Under the pieces are notes generated by a model. It ran no database searches. It worked only from the letters and a program-made list of their open reading frames with translations, and was not told the origin of the DNA. This document shows positions 1 through 52,036 of a stretch of DNA of 64,000 nucleotides, in pieces; positions within the stretch are counted from its first letter, which is position 1; each line of letters begins with the position of its first letter. Source of the DNA: Acidobacteriota bacterium (GTDB taxonomy: Bacteria > Acidobacteriota > Thermoanaerobaculia > Gp7-AA8); assembly GCA_021781455.1 (NCBI GenBank), contig JAJXWV010000030.1:124001-188000 (forward strand), in the 5' to 3' direction. The translations under genes and the position numbers were made by a program.

Positions 1-1499
1 GCGCCACGGCTCAGCTCCGCGAACGGCGCGGCCGCTCGGATCGCAGCGAACAGATCGTCGGCATTCCAGTCGTCCATCGAGACCATGGCCACGATCTGCT
101 GGGCCAGGACGTCGAGCGGATTGCGCGGATAGCGCGTCGGCTCGATTCGGCCGTCGTGCATGGCCCGCGTGACCGCCGCGCAGGCCACCAGATCGCCGCG
201 GAACTTGGGGAAGATGATTCCTTCGCTCACCGCGCCGACCTGGTGGCTGGCCCGGCCGATGCGCTGCATGCCGCTGGCAATCGAGGGCGGTGCCTCGATC
301 TGGATGACCAGGTCGATGGCCCCCATGTCGATCCCCAGCTCCAGTGACGACGTGGCCACGAGTGCCGGGAGCCTCCCCGACTTGAGGTTGTCTTCGATCT
401 CCACCCGCTGCGCCCGGGCAATCGAGCCGTGATGGGCCTGCACCAGGATTTCGCCGGCCAGCTCGTTGAGCGAGCCGGCCAGGCGTTCGGCGAGGCGCCG
501 CGAGTTCACGAAGATCAGAGTCGAGCGGTGCTCGCGGATCAGCTCGAGCAGCCGCGGGTGAATGGCCGGCCAGATCGAGGCGCGAGCCGGGCCGCTCCAG
601 GCCGGACCGCTGGCAATGCCGGTCGCTTCCCCGAGCTTCGCCATCTCCTCGACCGGCACTTCCACGCGGATGGAGAGCTGCTTCTTCTCCTCGGTGTTGA
701 TGATCGAGACGGCGCGGAAGTGCGTCTTCTCGGTCGTCGCGAACTCGTCGTGGACGGCGTCGGCAGGGTTACGCGGTTCCGCGGTTGCGCGGTTCCGCGG
801 TTTCTTCTCCACCTGGTGGCCTCGCAACCTCGTGACCTCGCAACCGCCGAGGAAACGCGCCACCTCATCGAGCGGCCGCTGCGTTGCCGAGAGACCGACG
901 CGTTGCGGCGGCGTTTCGCAGATCCGCGCCAGGCGTTCGAGCGAAAGCGCCAGGTGCACGCCGCGCTTGTTCGGAACCAGCGCATGGATCTCGTCGACGA
1001 TGACGGTCTCCACGGCCCGCAGTGATTCGCGGGCGCTCGACGTCAGCATCAGGTAAAGCGACTCCGGCGTGGTGATCAGGATGTCCGCCGGCTGGCGGAG
1101 AAAACGCGCCCGCTCGGCCTGTGGAGTGTCACCCGTTCGGATGGCGATCTCCGGCATGACGAAGGCCTCGTTGCGAGCGGACGCCAGGTTCGCGATGCCG
1201 GCCAGAGGTGCGCGCAGGTTCCGCTCCACGTCGACGGCCAGAGCCTTGAGGGGCGAGACGTAAACGACCCGGCAGCGCCGCTCCTTCTTCGGGATCGGAG
1301 CGAACATCAGCCGGTCGAGAGCCCAGAGAAACGCCGTCAGCGTCTTCCCGCTACCCGTCGGCGCGAAGATCAGGGTCCAATCGCCGCCGGCAATCGAAGG
1401 CCACCCCAGCTCCTGCGCGCGCGTGGGCGCCGCGAACGAGCCGGTGAACCACTCGCGCACGGCAGGATGAAAGCGGGCAAGAACTGATGGTGTCGGCAT
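1..1499 (-). CDS. lhr: Lhr-type DEAD/DEAH superfamily 2 helicase (3' end outside window)
   Basis: Continuous minus-strand reading frame starting at the ATG at 1499 and running off the left edge, so only the first ~499 residues are seen. It shows a Walker A motif APTGSGKT (residues 46-53), a DEIH Walker B box, a PESL motif, LSAT, HHGS and an IGRAS-type motif VI, in the order of the Lhr helicase core. Lhr proteins are 3'-5' DNA/RNA-DNA helicases linked to repair. After the EVARFLGG stretch there is an extra segment of about 30 residues rich in Arg, Pro and Asn, encoded by a hairpin repeat (767-846). The winged-helix and C-terminal Lhr domains would lie outside, so Lhr-Core versus a shorter Lhr-like helicase cannot be settled. 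The stretch 1500-1686 upstream holds no gene. Confidence 0.9.
   Translation of the reverse strand, partial: MPTPSVLARFHPAVREWFTGSFAAPTRAQELGWPSIAGGDWTLIFAPTGSGKTLTAFLWALDRLMFAPIPKKERRCRVVYVSPLKALAVDVERNLRAPLAGIANLASARNEAFVMPEIAIRTGDTPQAERARFLRQPADILITTPESLYLMLTSSARESLRAVETVIVDEIHALVPNKRGVHLALSLERLARICETPPQRVGLSATQRPLDEVARFLGGCEVTRLRGHQVEKKPRNRATAEPRNPADAVHDEFATTEKTHFRAVSIINTEEKKQLSIRVEVPVEEMAKLGEATGIASGPAWSGPARASIWPAIHPRLLELIREHRSTLIFVNSRRLAERLAGSLNELAGEILVQAHHGSIARAQRVEIEDNLKSGRLPALVATSSLELGIDMGAIDLVIQIEAPPSIASGMQRIGRASHQVGAVSEGIIFPKFRGDLVACAAVTRAMHDGRIEPTRYPRNPLDVLAQQIVAMVSMDDWNADDLFAAIRAAAPFAELSRG
767..846. repeat. Octamer hairpin module inside the helicase gene
   Basis: Units of the type GCGGTTCC/GCGGTTGC (767-803) are followed after ~16 bases by inverted units CTCGCAAC/CTCGTGAC (820-846). 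The module lies within the helicase frame and is translated without a stop. The same unit family occurs at 5947-6034, 34346-34424 and 46050-46114. Confidence 0.75.
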
Positions 1500-5949: not shown

Positions 5950-6034
5950 TTCGGTTGCGCGGTTCCGCGGTCTCGCGGTTGCGCAGTTTTCAAACCGACT
6001 GAACGATTGCTCACCGCGCAACAGCGCAACCCCT
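5947..6034. repeat. Octamer hairpin module between glycosyltransferase and nfeD
   Basis: The left arm carries CGGTTGCG/CGGTTCCG units (5954-5991). A shorter right arm with GCGCAAC units ends at the nfeD stop codon (6016-6034). It lies exactly between two convergent stops, where it could act as a bidirectional terminator. Confidence 0.65.
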
Positions 6035-23035: not shown

Positions 23036-23368
23036 CTTGTCATTCCGAGCGCTCGAATCGCGCCGACGCGACACCGGAGAAAGGAAACGTTCGATCGTTT
23101 CCCCTCTCCCCGCCGCAGCGGGGAGAGGGCCGGGGTGAGGGGTCTCGTTCTCGATCAAAAGGGCCCCCTCATCCGCCTTCGGCACCTTCTCCCCGCTGCG
23201 GCGGGGAGAAGGGCAACGAACGCCAGAGCCCGCATAAACACTGGGAGTTTCTTCGAAGGTCAGCGAGGAATCCGGGAGGGCCGAGGCGTGCCACCTGCGT
23301 GGTTTCAGCACACTCAGCGCGCCGCCCTTTCCCCCAGATCCCTCGCTGACGCTCGGGATGACACTGTT
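23036..23368. repeat. Cluster of intergenic repeats between merR and the sulfoxide reductase gene
   Basis: The outer ends are inverses of the TGTCATCCCGAGCG-type repeat (TGTCATTCCGAGCG at ~23038; CTCGGGATGACA ending ~23365), also seen at 29560-29622. Inside are two CCCTCTCCCCGC...GCGGGGAGAGGG hairpins and a copy of the CCCTCATCCGCCTTCGGCAC repeat of 2527-2630 (23162-23217). The stretch 22929-23366 contains no gene that I can support. Confidence 0.65.
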
Positions 23369-23969: not shown

Positions 23970-23990
23970 CGCGGGTGCCACTCCTTTTCG

Positions 23991-24061
23991 AAGTCCTGAG
24001 TGCTGAGTCCTGAGTGGATCGCGCGCTGGTACTCAGGACTCAGGACTCAGGACTCAGGACT
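23991..24061. repeat. ACTCAGG heptamer hairpin between glgA and msrC
   Basis: The left arm AGTCCTGAGTGCTGAGTCCT (about 23992-24017) faces a right arm with four ACTCAGG units (24030-24061) that runs into the glgA stop. The left arm is nearly identical to 4619-4655. Confidence 0.75.
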
Positions 24062-25528
24062 TCAAATCGTTCGTGCTCGTTCGTAGACGTCTTCGTATTC
24101 GTGCGCGGAGCGGTCCCATGAAAAATCGACGGCCATTCCGTTGCGCTGAAGCTGCTTCCAGGTTTTCGCATCCCGATAGTTGAGGATCGCCAGCCACGTC
24201 GCGGCGAAGAGCTCATCGCTGCTCGGCGCCGCGAATCCGAAGCCGTTCGCCACGTCTCCATTGCTGCCGTCGAACGGGTGCACAGTATCGACGAGGCCGC
24301 CGGTCAGCCGCACGACCGGCACCGTTCCGTAACGCAGCGCGTACATCTGATTGAGCCCGCACGGCTCGTACATCGACGGCATCAGGAGGAAGTCGGCTCC
24401 GCCGTAGATGCGGTGCGCGAGAGCGTTGTCGAAGCCGATCCAGACGCGACAGCTCTTCGGATTCTCCGCCTCGGCCGCGCGAAATCCGTCTTCGATCGCC
24501 GCCTCGCCGCTGCCCAGAACGACGGCCTGCGCTCCGAGTCGCAGCAGGCGGGTCAATATCGGGATGAGCAACTGGAAACCCTTCTGGTCAGCCATGCGCG
24601 ATACGACGGCCATCAGCGGAGTTCTGGCCCGATAGGCGAGCTTCGCCTCACGCAGCAGGGCGCGCTTGCTGAGGTTCTTTCCCGCCAGCCTCTCCGCGCT
24701 ATAGGTGGAGCGAAGGTGCTCGTCGCTCTCGGGATTCCACTCCTCCACGTCGATGCCGTTGAGGATCCCGGTCAGCTTGAACGACAGGCTGCGCAGGATA
24801 CCGTCGAGGCCCGCGCCTAACACGGGCGTCTGGATCTCCCGCGCATAGTTCGGCGACACCGTAGTCACCTGGTCCGCGAAGAGAATGCCGGCCTTCATCG
24901 GGTTGACCTGGCCCCAGTGCTCGACCGCGTCCGGCCGCCAGTACCGGCTGTGCAAGCCCGTGATCGAAAAGGCGTTCGCCGCCGCCACCCCCTGGTAATT
25001 CAGGTTGTGAATCGTGTAGACGGAGCGCGTGGCGCGGAAGGCGGGATTTCCCCGCAACCCTGAATCGAGATACACCGGCATCAGCGCCGTGTGCCAGTCG
25101 TGCGCGTGCAGGATGTCGGGAGCGATGCCGAGTGTGCTGCAACCGTTGATGACGGCGCGGCAGAAGAACGTATAGCGGAGGAGGAAGTCGTCGAAGCCAT
25201 CGTCGCGTGTCGCGTAGATCTGCCGCCGGTCGAAGAAAAAATCGTTGGCGATCAGATACAGCGGCACGTCGCTGCCCGGCAGAGTCGTCGTCAGCACGGT
25301 CGACTCGGCCGACCAGTTCGCCCAGATCACCTGGGTCGTCGGCACCGCGACCTCGGGAACGACCCCGTTTGCCTCGAACCATTCCCGGGCCTGCCGGTAA
25401 TACGGCATGAACACGATCACTTCGTGACCGAGGGCGGCCAGCGCTTTGGGCAGCGAGCCGCAGACGTCTCCCAGGCCGCCGGTCTTGGCGATCGGAGCAA
25501 CCTCGGCAGTGGCGAAAAGGACGCGCAT
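24062..25528 (-). CDS. glgA: Glycogen synthase (ADP-glucose type, GT5)
   Basis: 488 residues from the ATG at 25528. K15 in KTGGLGDVCGSLP is the conserved ADP-glucose-binding lysine. The GT-B C-terminal lobe shows VSRMADQKGFQLL, GSGEAAIEDGF and the EPCGLNQMYALRYGTVPVV nucleotide-sugar signature. It elongates alpha-1,4-glucan. No other glycogen genes are next to it. A TAAACT box 13 bases before the ATG suggests a near-leaderless transcript, and GGGTAGC heptamers lie just upstream of that box. Confidence 0.95.
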   Translation of the reverse strand: MRVLFATAEVAPIAKTGGLGDVCGSLPKALAALGHEVIVFMPYYRQAREWFEANGVVPEVAVPTTQVIWANWSAESTVLTTTLPGSDVPLYLIANDFFFDRRQIYATRDDGFDDFLLRYTFFCRAVINGCSTLGIAPDILHAHDWHTALMPVYLDSGLRGNPAFRATRSVYTIHNLNYQGVAAANAFSITGLHSRYWRPDAVEHWGQVNPMKAGILFADQVTTVSPNYAREIQTPVLGAGLDGILRSLSFKLTGILNGIDVEEWNPESDEHLRSTYSAERLAGKNLSKRALLREAKLAYRARTPLMAVVSRMADQKGFQLLIPILTRLLRLGAQAVVLGSGEAAIEDGFRAAEAENPKSCRVWIGFDNALAHRIYGGADFLLMPSMYEPCGLNQMYALRYGTVPVVRLTGGLVDTVHPFDGSNGDVANGFGFAAPSSDELFAATWLAILNYRDAKTWKQLQRNGMAVDFSWDRSAHEYEDVYERARTI

Positions 25529-25547: not shown

Positions 25548-25551
25548 CCCG

Positions 25552-25660
25552 AGCGGGTAGCGGGTAGCGGGTAGCGGGTAGCGGGTGGCGGGTAGGAGAA
25601 AGGCCCGCCCAGATGGTTCTCCCGCAAGCTACCCGCTACACGCCCCACGCTACACGCTCG
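25552..25660. repeat. GGGTAGC heptamer hairpin upstream of glgA
   Basis: About six GGGTAGC/GGGTGGC units (25552-25595) face inverted GCTACCC/GCTACAC units (25627-25660). The right arm ends directly at the stop codon of the Memo-like gene. It fills the gap between that gene and glgA. Confidence 0.8.
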
Positions 25661-26514: not shown

Positions 26515-26642
26515 CTAGCGGGTAGCGGGTAGCGGGTAGCGGGTAGCGGGTAGCGGGTAGCGGGTAGCGGGTAGCGGGTAGCGGGTAGCGGGTAGCGGGG
26601 GATTCCCTCCGTCCTACCCGCTACCCGCTACCCGCTACCCGC
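26515..26642. repeat. Largest GGGTAGC heptamer array with inverted right arm
   Basis: About twelve consecutive GGGTAGC units (26515-26600) face about four inverted GCTACCC units (26613-26642) across 12 bases. Runs of GGG every seven bases give a potential G-quadruplex on the plus strand. It lies between the stop of the M14 peptidase gene and the start of the Memo-like gene. Confidence 0.85.
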
Positions 26643-26649
26643 TTCATCC

Positions 26650-33944: not shown

Positions 33945-34880
33945 TTATGTGACCGGAAATCTGCACGTATCGCGCAGAAGGCAGACGTCGCAGTTTGACT
34001 TCCGCCTCACACGACTGCAGAGGTCGAGGATGCCGAGGCGGCAGAGCGCGAAGTCATAACGGACTGGATCGGCCGGATCGAGGCGGGCGAGCCGATCGGT
34101 CAGCAGCCGCGCCGTTTTCCAGTCTGCGGACTTCCGATCGTTCAATCCGAGAAACGTGGCGATGCGGTGGACATGCGTGTCGAGCGGAATGACCAGCTTT
34201 GCCGGATCGACGAAGTCCCAGAGGCCGAGATCGGGCGCGCTGCGGCGAACCATCCAGCGCAGGTAGAGGTTCATCCGCTTGCAGGCGCTACCGTCTGCGG
34301 GAGAGGAGAGGAGGTACTCGAGCGTCTTCGCCGTTTTCGGGGGCACGGGGTTGCGAGGTCGCGAAGTCGCGAGGCCACGTGCACCTCGAAATCTCGAAAC
34401 CTCGCGACCTCGTGACCCGGACCGGCCGATGACGGCGTTCACGAACCGATCGAGGCTCGGACCGATATCCGGCTCTTCCGCGTCGTAACAGATCCGGAAG
34501 AGCTCGCCTAACGAGCCGTGCTCGCTGATCACCGACGCGATGCGTTCCAGAAACGCGACGAGCTCGGCAGTTTTGTGGAACCGATGCGAGAACCCGCGAA
34601 AGCGCTTCCCCCCTTCTTGCGCATCGAACGCGGCGAGGTATGCAAACGGAGACGGGCCCATCGAGTCCAGCAGCGCACCGATGTTGGAAACGATGATGTC
34701 CGCGCGGCCATACGCGAATGCGGCGGCGATCAGACCGGCGACTTCCTGGTCCAGCGGATGGCCGTAGCGGAGCACCAGTTGCAGCGGGTCGGGCTCGATC
34801 GTCGAGACGTCGAACGTTTCCACGAGTACGTCGAGGCGTTCGCGAAGAACGTCCTCGGACACAGGCTTGCGCAGCCTCAT
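33945..34880 (-). CDS. TIGR02757-family conserved hypothetical protein
   Basis: 311 residues. The stretches FAYGRADIIVSNI, GSACKRMNLYLRWMVR, VIPLDTHVHRIATFLGL and a C-terminal set CDVCLLRDTC match a conserved family with an endonuclease-III-like helical layout and late cysteines. No reaction is established to my knowledge. About 25 residues (SRGREVSRFRGARGLATSRP and neighbours) are encoded by a hairpin repeat at 34346-34424 and would not be expected in the family. Its ATG overlaps the stop of the upstream lipoprotein gene (ATGA). Confidence 0.85.
   Translation of the reverse strand: MRLRKPVSEDVLRERLDVLVETFDVSTIEPDPLQLVLRYGHPLDQEVAGLIAAAFAYGRADIIVSNIGALLDSMGPSPFAYLAAFDAQEGGKRFRGFSHRFHKTAELVAFLERIASVISEHGSLGELFRICYDAEEPDIGPSLDRFVNAVIGRSGSRGREVSRFRGARGLATSRPRNPVPPKTAKTLEYLLSSPADGSACKRMNLYLRWMVRRSAPDLGLWDFVDPAKLVIPLDTHVHRIATFLGLNDRKSADWKTARLLTDRLARLDPADPVRYDFALCRLGILDLCSRVRRKSNCDVCLLRDTCRFPVT
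34346..34424. repeat. Octamer hairpin module inside the TIGR02757 gene
   Basis: The left arm has TTGCGAGG, TCGCGAAG and TCGCGAGG units (34350-34375); the right arm has inverted CCTCGAAA, CCTCGCGA and CCTCGTGA units (34384-34418). The module is multiple-of-three compatible with the gene and contains no stop in that frame. Confidence 0.75.
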
Positions 34881-46006: not shown

Positions 46007-46114
46007 AGGTCACCAGGTCACCAGGTCACCAGGTCACCAGGTCACCAGTAAGCTACGCCTCGCAACGCAACCTCGTGACCCGGTACACCTCGCGACCTCG
46101 CAACCTCGCAACCC
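46007..46114. repeat. GGTCACCA octamer array and CTCGCAAC module upstream of the phosphoesterase gene
   Basis: About five tandem GGTCACCA units (46007-46050; the unit itself is nearly palindromic) are followed by CTCGCAAC/CTCGTGAC/CTCGCGAC units (46057-46114). It ends ~16 bases before the ATG at 46130. It occupies most of the gap 45888-46129. Confidence 0.7.
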
Positions 46115-47970: not shown

Positions 47971-48077
47971 GAATTGAAAATTGAAAATGCAAAATTGAAA
48001 GAGCCCTGGAGCACAGGGTCTCAGCCTGTTTCTCCTCGTTCAGGCTTTTCAATTTTCAATTTCTCATTTTCAATTTC
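47971..48077. repeat. ATTGAAA heptamer hairpin between tRNA-Pro and tRNA-Arg
   Basis: Four ATTGAAA-type units (47972-48000) face inverted TTTCAAT units (48047-48077), across a ~45-base loop with its own small hairpin (CCTG...CAGG). It is strikingly AT-rich within GC-rich DNA. A second copy lies between the tRNA-Ser genes at 49599-49690. Confidence 0.8.
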
Positions 48078-49587: not shown

Positions 49588-49598
49588 GGATCGTCAGG

Positions 49599-49690
49599 AG
49601 AATTGAAAATGAAAAATTGAAAATTGAAATCGTCATCCTTTAGCGCTGACGATTTGTTGTCAATTTTCAATTTACAATTTTCAATTCTCA
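49599..49690. repeat. ATTGAAA heptamer hairpin between the tRNA-Ser genes
   Basis: ATTGAAA/ATGAAAA units (49601-49629) face inverted TTTCAAT/TTTACAA units (49660-49689); the inner loop carries its own hairpin CGTCA...TGACG. The right arm ends four bases before tRNA-Ser(GGA). Confidence 0.8.
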
Positions 49691-51951: not shown

Positions 51952-52036
51952 AGCGGGTAGCGAGTAGCGGGTAGCGGGTAGGAGAACGAACCTTCACTTT
52001 CCACCTACCCGCTACCCGCTACCCGCTACCCGCTTC
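51952..52036. repeat. GGGTAGC heptamer hairpin between ybaB and recR
   Basis: About four GGGTAGC/GAGTAGC units (51954-51981) face about four inverted GCTACCC units (52004-52034). It starts just after the ybaB stop and ends ten bases before the recR ATG, within what is otherwise a tight operon. Confidence 0.8.

Follow-up and report, generated by a model that had tools for sequence, protein, structure and literature searches.

The locus holds an intact gene of the TIGR02757/DUF2400 family, read from the minus strand of the 64-kb window (the whole stretch of DNA analysed), with an inverted array of octamers inside its reading frame. The features are as follows.

33945..34880, minus strand: host gene, TIGR02757/DUF2400 family protein (profile match and open frame)
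34341..34424, minus strand: inserted segment, 84 nt encoding the 28 residues RSGSRGREVSRFRGARGLATSRPRNPVP (translation and ortholog alignment)
34341..34374, plus strand: left arm, GGGCACGG (degenerate) GGTTGCGA GGTCGCGA AGTCGCGA GG
34375..34383, strand not assigned: unique spacer, CCACGTGCA
34384..34417, plus strand: right arm of inverted octamers, CC TCGAAATC TCGAAACC TCGCGACC TCGTGACC

The host protein has 311 aa from a likely ATG at 34880, or 328 aa from an upstream GTG. It scores 185 bits against TIGR02757 (cut-off 139) and 226 bits against DUF2400, with matches flanking the segment on both sides within a single open frame, and its C-terminal part (residues 242–323 of the 328-aa form) resembles endonuclease III (E 5e-4). 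The inverted repeat pairs arms at 34349–34374 and 34384–34417, with an 18-nt core at 89%; the outer octamer at 34341–34348 is more degenerate than the rest of the left arm. Arms, open frame and profile matches agree with the initial annotation, which described an inverted octamer module in frame inside a TIGR02757-family gene, and the translation places the segment where it had been put, in mid-protein just before KTAKTLEYLLSSPADGSACKRMNLYLRW, which directly follows RSGSRGREVSRFRGARGLATSRPRNPVP. The same annotation spoke of about 25 Arg/Ser-rich residues; the composition stands (a basic peptide with R or S at 13 of 28 positions), and the length is corrected to 28 residues (84 nt, 34341–34424). 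RNA of the gene strand is predicted to form a long hairpin across the segment (−47.7 kcal/mol, z −3.7), a stability reached by 0 of 200 shuffles.

An alignment of the family with and without the segment had been proposed, with conservation of the segment at protein level in genomes lacking the repeat as the finding that would speak against an insertion. Among 15 aligned family orthologs, 14 have no segment, including the one from the same genus; in these the residues flanking it are adjacent or separated by a few variable residues. At the same junction, the fifteenth (L048, genome G002) has CHPERSEGPVWAGG...RYARDDK in frame, the product of another palindrome, almost perfect and unrelated to the octamer array. 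Structure prediction of the host protein from its single sequence gave a pLDDT of 36 and was uninformative, so it is from the alignments that the segment is read as an exposed loop. The segment probably forms an extra, harmless loop, at residues 153–180, on a TIGR02757 protein that would still work.

The segment belongs to a dispersed family. With its region as query, 65 further genome matches were found at E≤0.001, a count that includes cases where both strands of one copy are represented, and a paired octamer pattern matched 39 times in the source genome, with 0 matches for the reversed control. Together with the fold (0 of 200 shuffles as stable), these matches rule out a chance inverted repeat. 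The common plan is (GGTYRCGA)n, GG, spacer, CC, (TCGYRACC)m, the G-rich arrays always facing each other. We collected at least 70 arrays in the source genome and 46 in its same-genus relative, from a catalogue that is incomplete. Two contigs of the source genome (C43 and C3) end within octamer arrays of 14–15 units (L121, L124); assembly thus seems to fail at long arrays, which makes the copy counts minimum values. Across 74 paired copies, arms mostly have 3–5 units each and spacers span 2 to 69 nt (median 25). Octamer positions 1–3 and 6 are conserved at 98–99%, a figure partly built in by a detector that favours these positions; C and T are about equally frequent at position 4, and position 5 is mostly A or G. 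At the variable positions, the two arms of one copy are about as alike (0.28) as arms of different copies (0.25). Copies start with GGT and finish with ACC, and none bears a GTAG or CGTC tag. Flank repeats over the 74 copies stay at the level of shuffled partners, with no target duplication above it, and orientation relative to element-free gaps showed no clear bias of the kind expected for a terminator or 3′-end role. The window also holds an intergenic copy and a weaker array.

46008..46113, strand not assigned: intergenic copy with a second inner array
5953..5984, plus strand: weaker single-arm array of four octamer-like units

The octamer family is narrowly distributed. The inverted pattern, with 39 matches in the source genome, had 0 in 395 further genomes sampled from the phylum. 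Tandem octamers gave 82 forward and 80 reverse matches in the source genome and 44/44 in the sole other genome of its genus (Thermoanaerobaculia), and a pattern search found them in none of the family's 16 remaining genomes. Scanning 84,980 species for the inverted pattern returned the Thermoanaerobaculia MAG Chersky.15_12, taken as the same-genus relative, the ‘Opitutae’ MAG KR3_bin-0468 and one match in a haloarchaeon. Spread to Opitutae was rejected, the KR3_bin-0468 matches being an unrelated palindrome, GTAGCAGCCGAGGTCACGAGGCTGG, that happens to contain GAGGTCACGAGG; the lone haloarchaeal match is taken as chance. The KR3_bin-0468 palindrome (GTAGCAGCCGAGGTCACGAGGCTGG..., L090–L115) is itself dispersed and GTAG-tagged, and fits the Opitutus REPs of PMC3733652. 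Within the genus, few of the collected copies occupy matching sites in the two species, as far as the incomplete catalogue goes. The genes beside one copy of the same-genus genome (L166) adjoin two different copies in the source genome (L013 and L014, 4 kb apart), an apparent rearrangement with copies at its edges.

Only 10 of 116 scored arrays from both genomes fall within predicted genes (called with a home-made codon-usage script), in sampled DNA that is 86% coding. In-gene copies are thus far rarer than the coding fraction predicts, which supports the view that they are tolerated, and we infer that most insertions inside genes are removed by selection. Elements inside genes have on average 3.2 of six frames open, against 2.2 of six between genes. 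One of the ten, in the gene of an FHA protein (L122), was dropped for its doubtful start codon. In-frame copies occur in at least eight conserved genes: those for TIGR02757, an Lhr-type helicase, RecJ, an AddB-like PD-(D/E)XK nuclease (PDDEXK_1), E1 dehydrogenase, a sugar nucleotidyltransferase, a glycosyltransferase (in both species) and the error-prone polymerase DnaE2, where the source genome also has an array at the DnaE2 site. The second independent in-frame case that the initial annotation invoked is confirmed in the window.

767..845: copy in frame within the gene of an Lhr-type DEAD helicase (3–1460, minus strand); the same site is filled in the same-genus relative

Most of the octamer host genes have orthologs with an empty site. 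Insertions are common to both species in the glycosyltransferase, Lhr and DnaE2 genes; of the two species, only the source genome has the TIGR02757 and nucleotidyltransferase sites filled; and in RecJ, E1 and AddB the second species of the genus has a different insert at the same junction. An assembly artefact is unlikely, since three genes have their site in common between both species of the genus.

The linkers hit by octamers are also hit by other repeats. Different inverted arrays stand at octamer junctions in RecJ (G013 and G015), E1 (G007 and G013), the glycosyltransferase (G007), DnaE2 (G004), AddB (G013) and TIGR02757 (G002). The unit is GGTTGCTS in RecJ of G015 (a unit found mainly in G008 and G015), a GGGAGTC-type heptamer in E1 and the glycosyltransferase of G007, and an ACTCAGC heptamer in DnaE2 of G004; AddB of G007 has an insert nearby, not at the identical place. 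From the alignments, these linkers are recurrent tolerated sites, interrupted in other genomes as well. Palindromes of an HPERSEG...ARDD type (GTCATCCCGAGC...) are translated in frame in TIGR02757 of G002 (L048) and AddB of G013 (L222), and both inserts share junctions with octamer copies of the source genome. In the E1 dehydrogenase of the source genome (L022), an inverted array of the heptamer GGTGTCG encodes a second in-frame insert, SGGGSQVSGPPPANEQAPPDTRHPTPDTR.

A search without preset units recovered inverted arrays with units of 7, 8 and 9 bases in samples from several family genomes. Seven inverted repeats with tandem arms occur in the window, and five simulated sequences contain none. 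The octamer family is therefore one of a class, inverted arrays of other units being present in both the window and the relatives. Rfam scanning of the 64-kb window found tRNA and SRP RNA only. The other repeats of the window are these.

25550–25660, 26517–26643 and 51952–52034: inverted AGCGGGT heptamer arrays that share the build of the octamer family
23990–24063, 47978–48076 and 49598–49689: inverted heptamer arrays of GAGTCCT type and AATTGAA type
2526–2631 and 23095–23219: a different palindrome, CCCCCTCATCCGCCTTCGGCAC..TTCTCCCC, in at least two copies

The arrays at 47978–48076 and 49598–49689 stand among tRNA genes. Elsewhere in the source genome, two RAYT-like genes (L242 and L243) each lie near paired copies of their own short palindrome, unrelated to the octamers.

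We conclude that the segment is very probably a copy of a palindromic repeat, lineage-specific and non-autonomous, that is translated and tolerated. The array would have entered the TIGR02757 gene once the genus had split into its two known species, or been lost from the other species. The reading frame is kept and the array has no stop in it, so the ribosome would read it through as a basic, Arg/Ser-rich surplus loop; insertions that break genes would be lost. For the spread itself, we favour a route by which the spacer is left behind and the target is not duplicated. Apart from about two pairs, spacers of different copies resemble each other no better than shuffled sequences do, an unexpected finding if the element is copied. 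Candidate routes would be an activity in trans that recognises the hairpin, or gene conversion that maintains the likeness of the arms; neither an autonomous element nor an enzyme for the spread was found.

More speculatively, and in our judgement unlikely, the arrays would be made afresh at each site by an activity that writes one 7–9-base unit on either side of a short stretch, local or filler. The units would differ from genus to genus, and a few fixed linkers in conserved proteins would be recurrent landing sites for whichever array the lineage currently produces. A reverse transcriptase as the writer was rejected, RVT_1 being present in only 6 of 18 family genomes and absent from the array-bearing G015.

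Growth in place is quite unlikely. Here slippage and hairpin-primed template switching would lengthen a short quasi-palindrome in an already variable linker, a process that many genomes would undergo with different 7–9-base units. The unrelated spacers fit this, as do several unrelated units of the same inverted-tandem build in related genomes and the fact that some linkers are variable anyway; neighbouring octamers, moreover, are more alike at their variable positions than chance allows (0.37 against 0.24), a sign of local expansion. However, one genome has the same octamer at about 70 sites and 16 relatives lack it altogether, which requires copying or a shared template.

That the octamers are a REP/RAYT-type element mobilised by a Y1 transposase of the genome is decidedly unlikely. 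The genome has 14 Y1_Tnp matches, and HUH transposition predicts the lack of target duplication, but the octamer copies have neither GTAG nor CGTC tag. At the four best of these loci, which we inspected, the RAYT-like genes have other palindromes and no adjoining octamer array; the sole array near one of the four is about 1 kb away, within DnaE2.

Selection for the inserted peptide itself, for instance as a basic loop that binds nucleic acid in hosts of which many act on DNA, is very improbable. The insert is basic, and five of the eight host genes (TIGR02757, RecJ, AddB-like, Lhr and DnaE2) have the look of DNA repair or recombination, a small number that nonetheless matches the leaning of REPs elsewhere (PMC3733652). 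Peptide selection is not supported, because copies encode different residues and orthologs sharing a site (glycosyltransferase, Lhr, DnaE2) show little residue conservation; in addition, other genomes place quite different peptides in the same linkers, and the gene set is small. Of the two options in the initial annotation, in-frame insertion tolerated or selected, the depletion in genes and the reused linkers speak for the first, and the varying residues speak against the second.

A brief literature search found no report of such repeats in Thermoanaerobaculia. The octamer family and its build appear to be undescribed, and the habit of translating palindromes is known from Rickettsia and a few other bacteria. 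Translated palindromic repeats are best known from Rickettsia, which live as obligate intracellular bacteria; our observations add an acidobacterial lineage, in which the elements are built differently. They also provide a natural protein series (RecJ, DnaE2, E1, AddB and TIGR02757) in which some 20–80 extra residues were repeatedly gained at one linker, useful for studying loop gain in proteins. For annotation, such segments would otherwise resemble lineage-specific domains, and the spacer puzzle turns the mode of spread into a testable question.

Eukaryotic foldback elements have inverted ends of short tandem repeats around an unrelated middle, are far longer and make target duplications. 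The octamer family resembles them in its inverted tandem-repeat ends and unrelated middle, but is shorter; the target-site duplication that marks foldback elements and MITEs of DDE transposases was not seen over 74 copies. The arms also resemble the cyanobacterial STRR sequences (PMC2670836), short-unit arrays able to form a hairpin that are mostly intergenic and also occur inside a functional gene (RNase P RNA; Vioque 1997, by its title as listed in PMC2858038). STRR units are usually 7 bp, whereas those of the octamer family are 8 bp with a degenerate YR centre, have inverted partner arrays and enter protein genes; true 7-bp arrays of octamer-family build do occur in the source genome and its relatives.

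In several bacteria, GTAG/CGTC REPs occur within ORFs, and many of these serve DNA repair; DnaE2 and recB are named (PMC3733652). Like the octamer copies, REPs are mostly intergenic and in some cases lie in frame in ORFs, where they encode 20–30 residues, and the repair-gene leaning of five in eight hosts agrees with theirs, small as that number is. The octamer family differs in having no GTAG/CGTC tag, no linked tyrosine transposase and arms of tandem octamers.

A further likeness is to the Rickettsia palindromic elements (RPEs; Ogata et al. 2000/2002), the standing example of palindromes translated inside genes according to PMC10969869 and PMC3767692, the latter of which already discusses insertion hotspots filled by different RPEs. 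Both are dispersed palindromes of about 100 nt found in frame within unrelated conserved genes, a gene for the DNA polymerase III alpha chain is among the targets of each, and orthologs may fill the site with another repeat. Octamer copies lie within pre-existing ORFs with the frame kept, as RPEs do. RPE families are described with a conserved encoded peptide, whereas octamer copies have no element-wide conserved sequence or peptide, only the octamer units in common and unrelated spacers, and they belong to another phylum, Acidobacteriota. Comparing known RPE families by their descriptions, we suggest that the octamer element works like an RPE.
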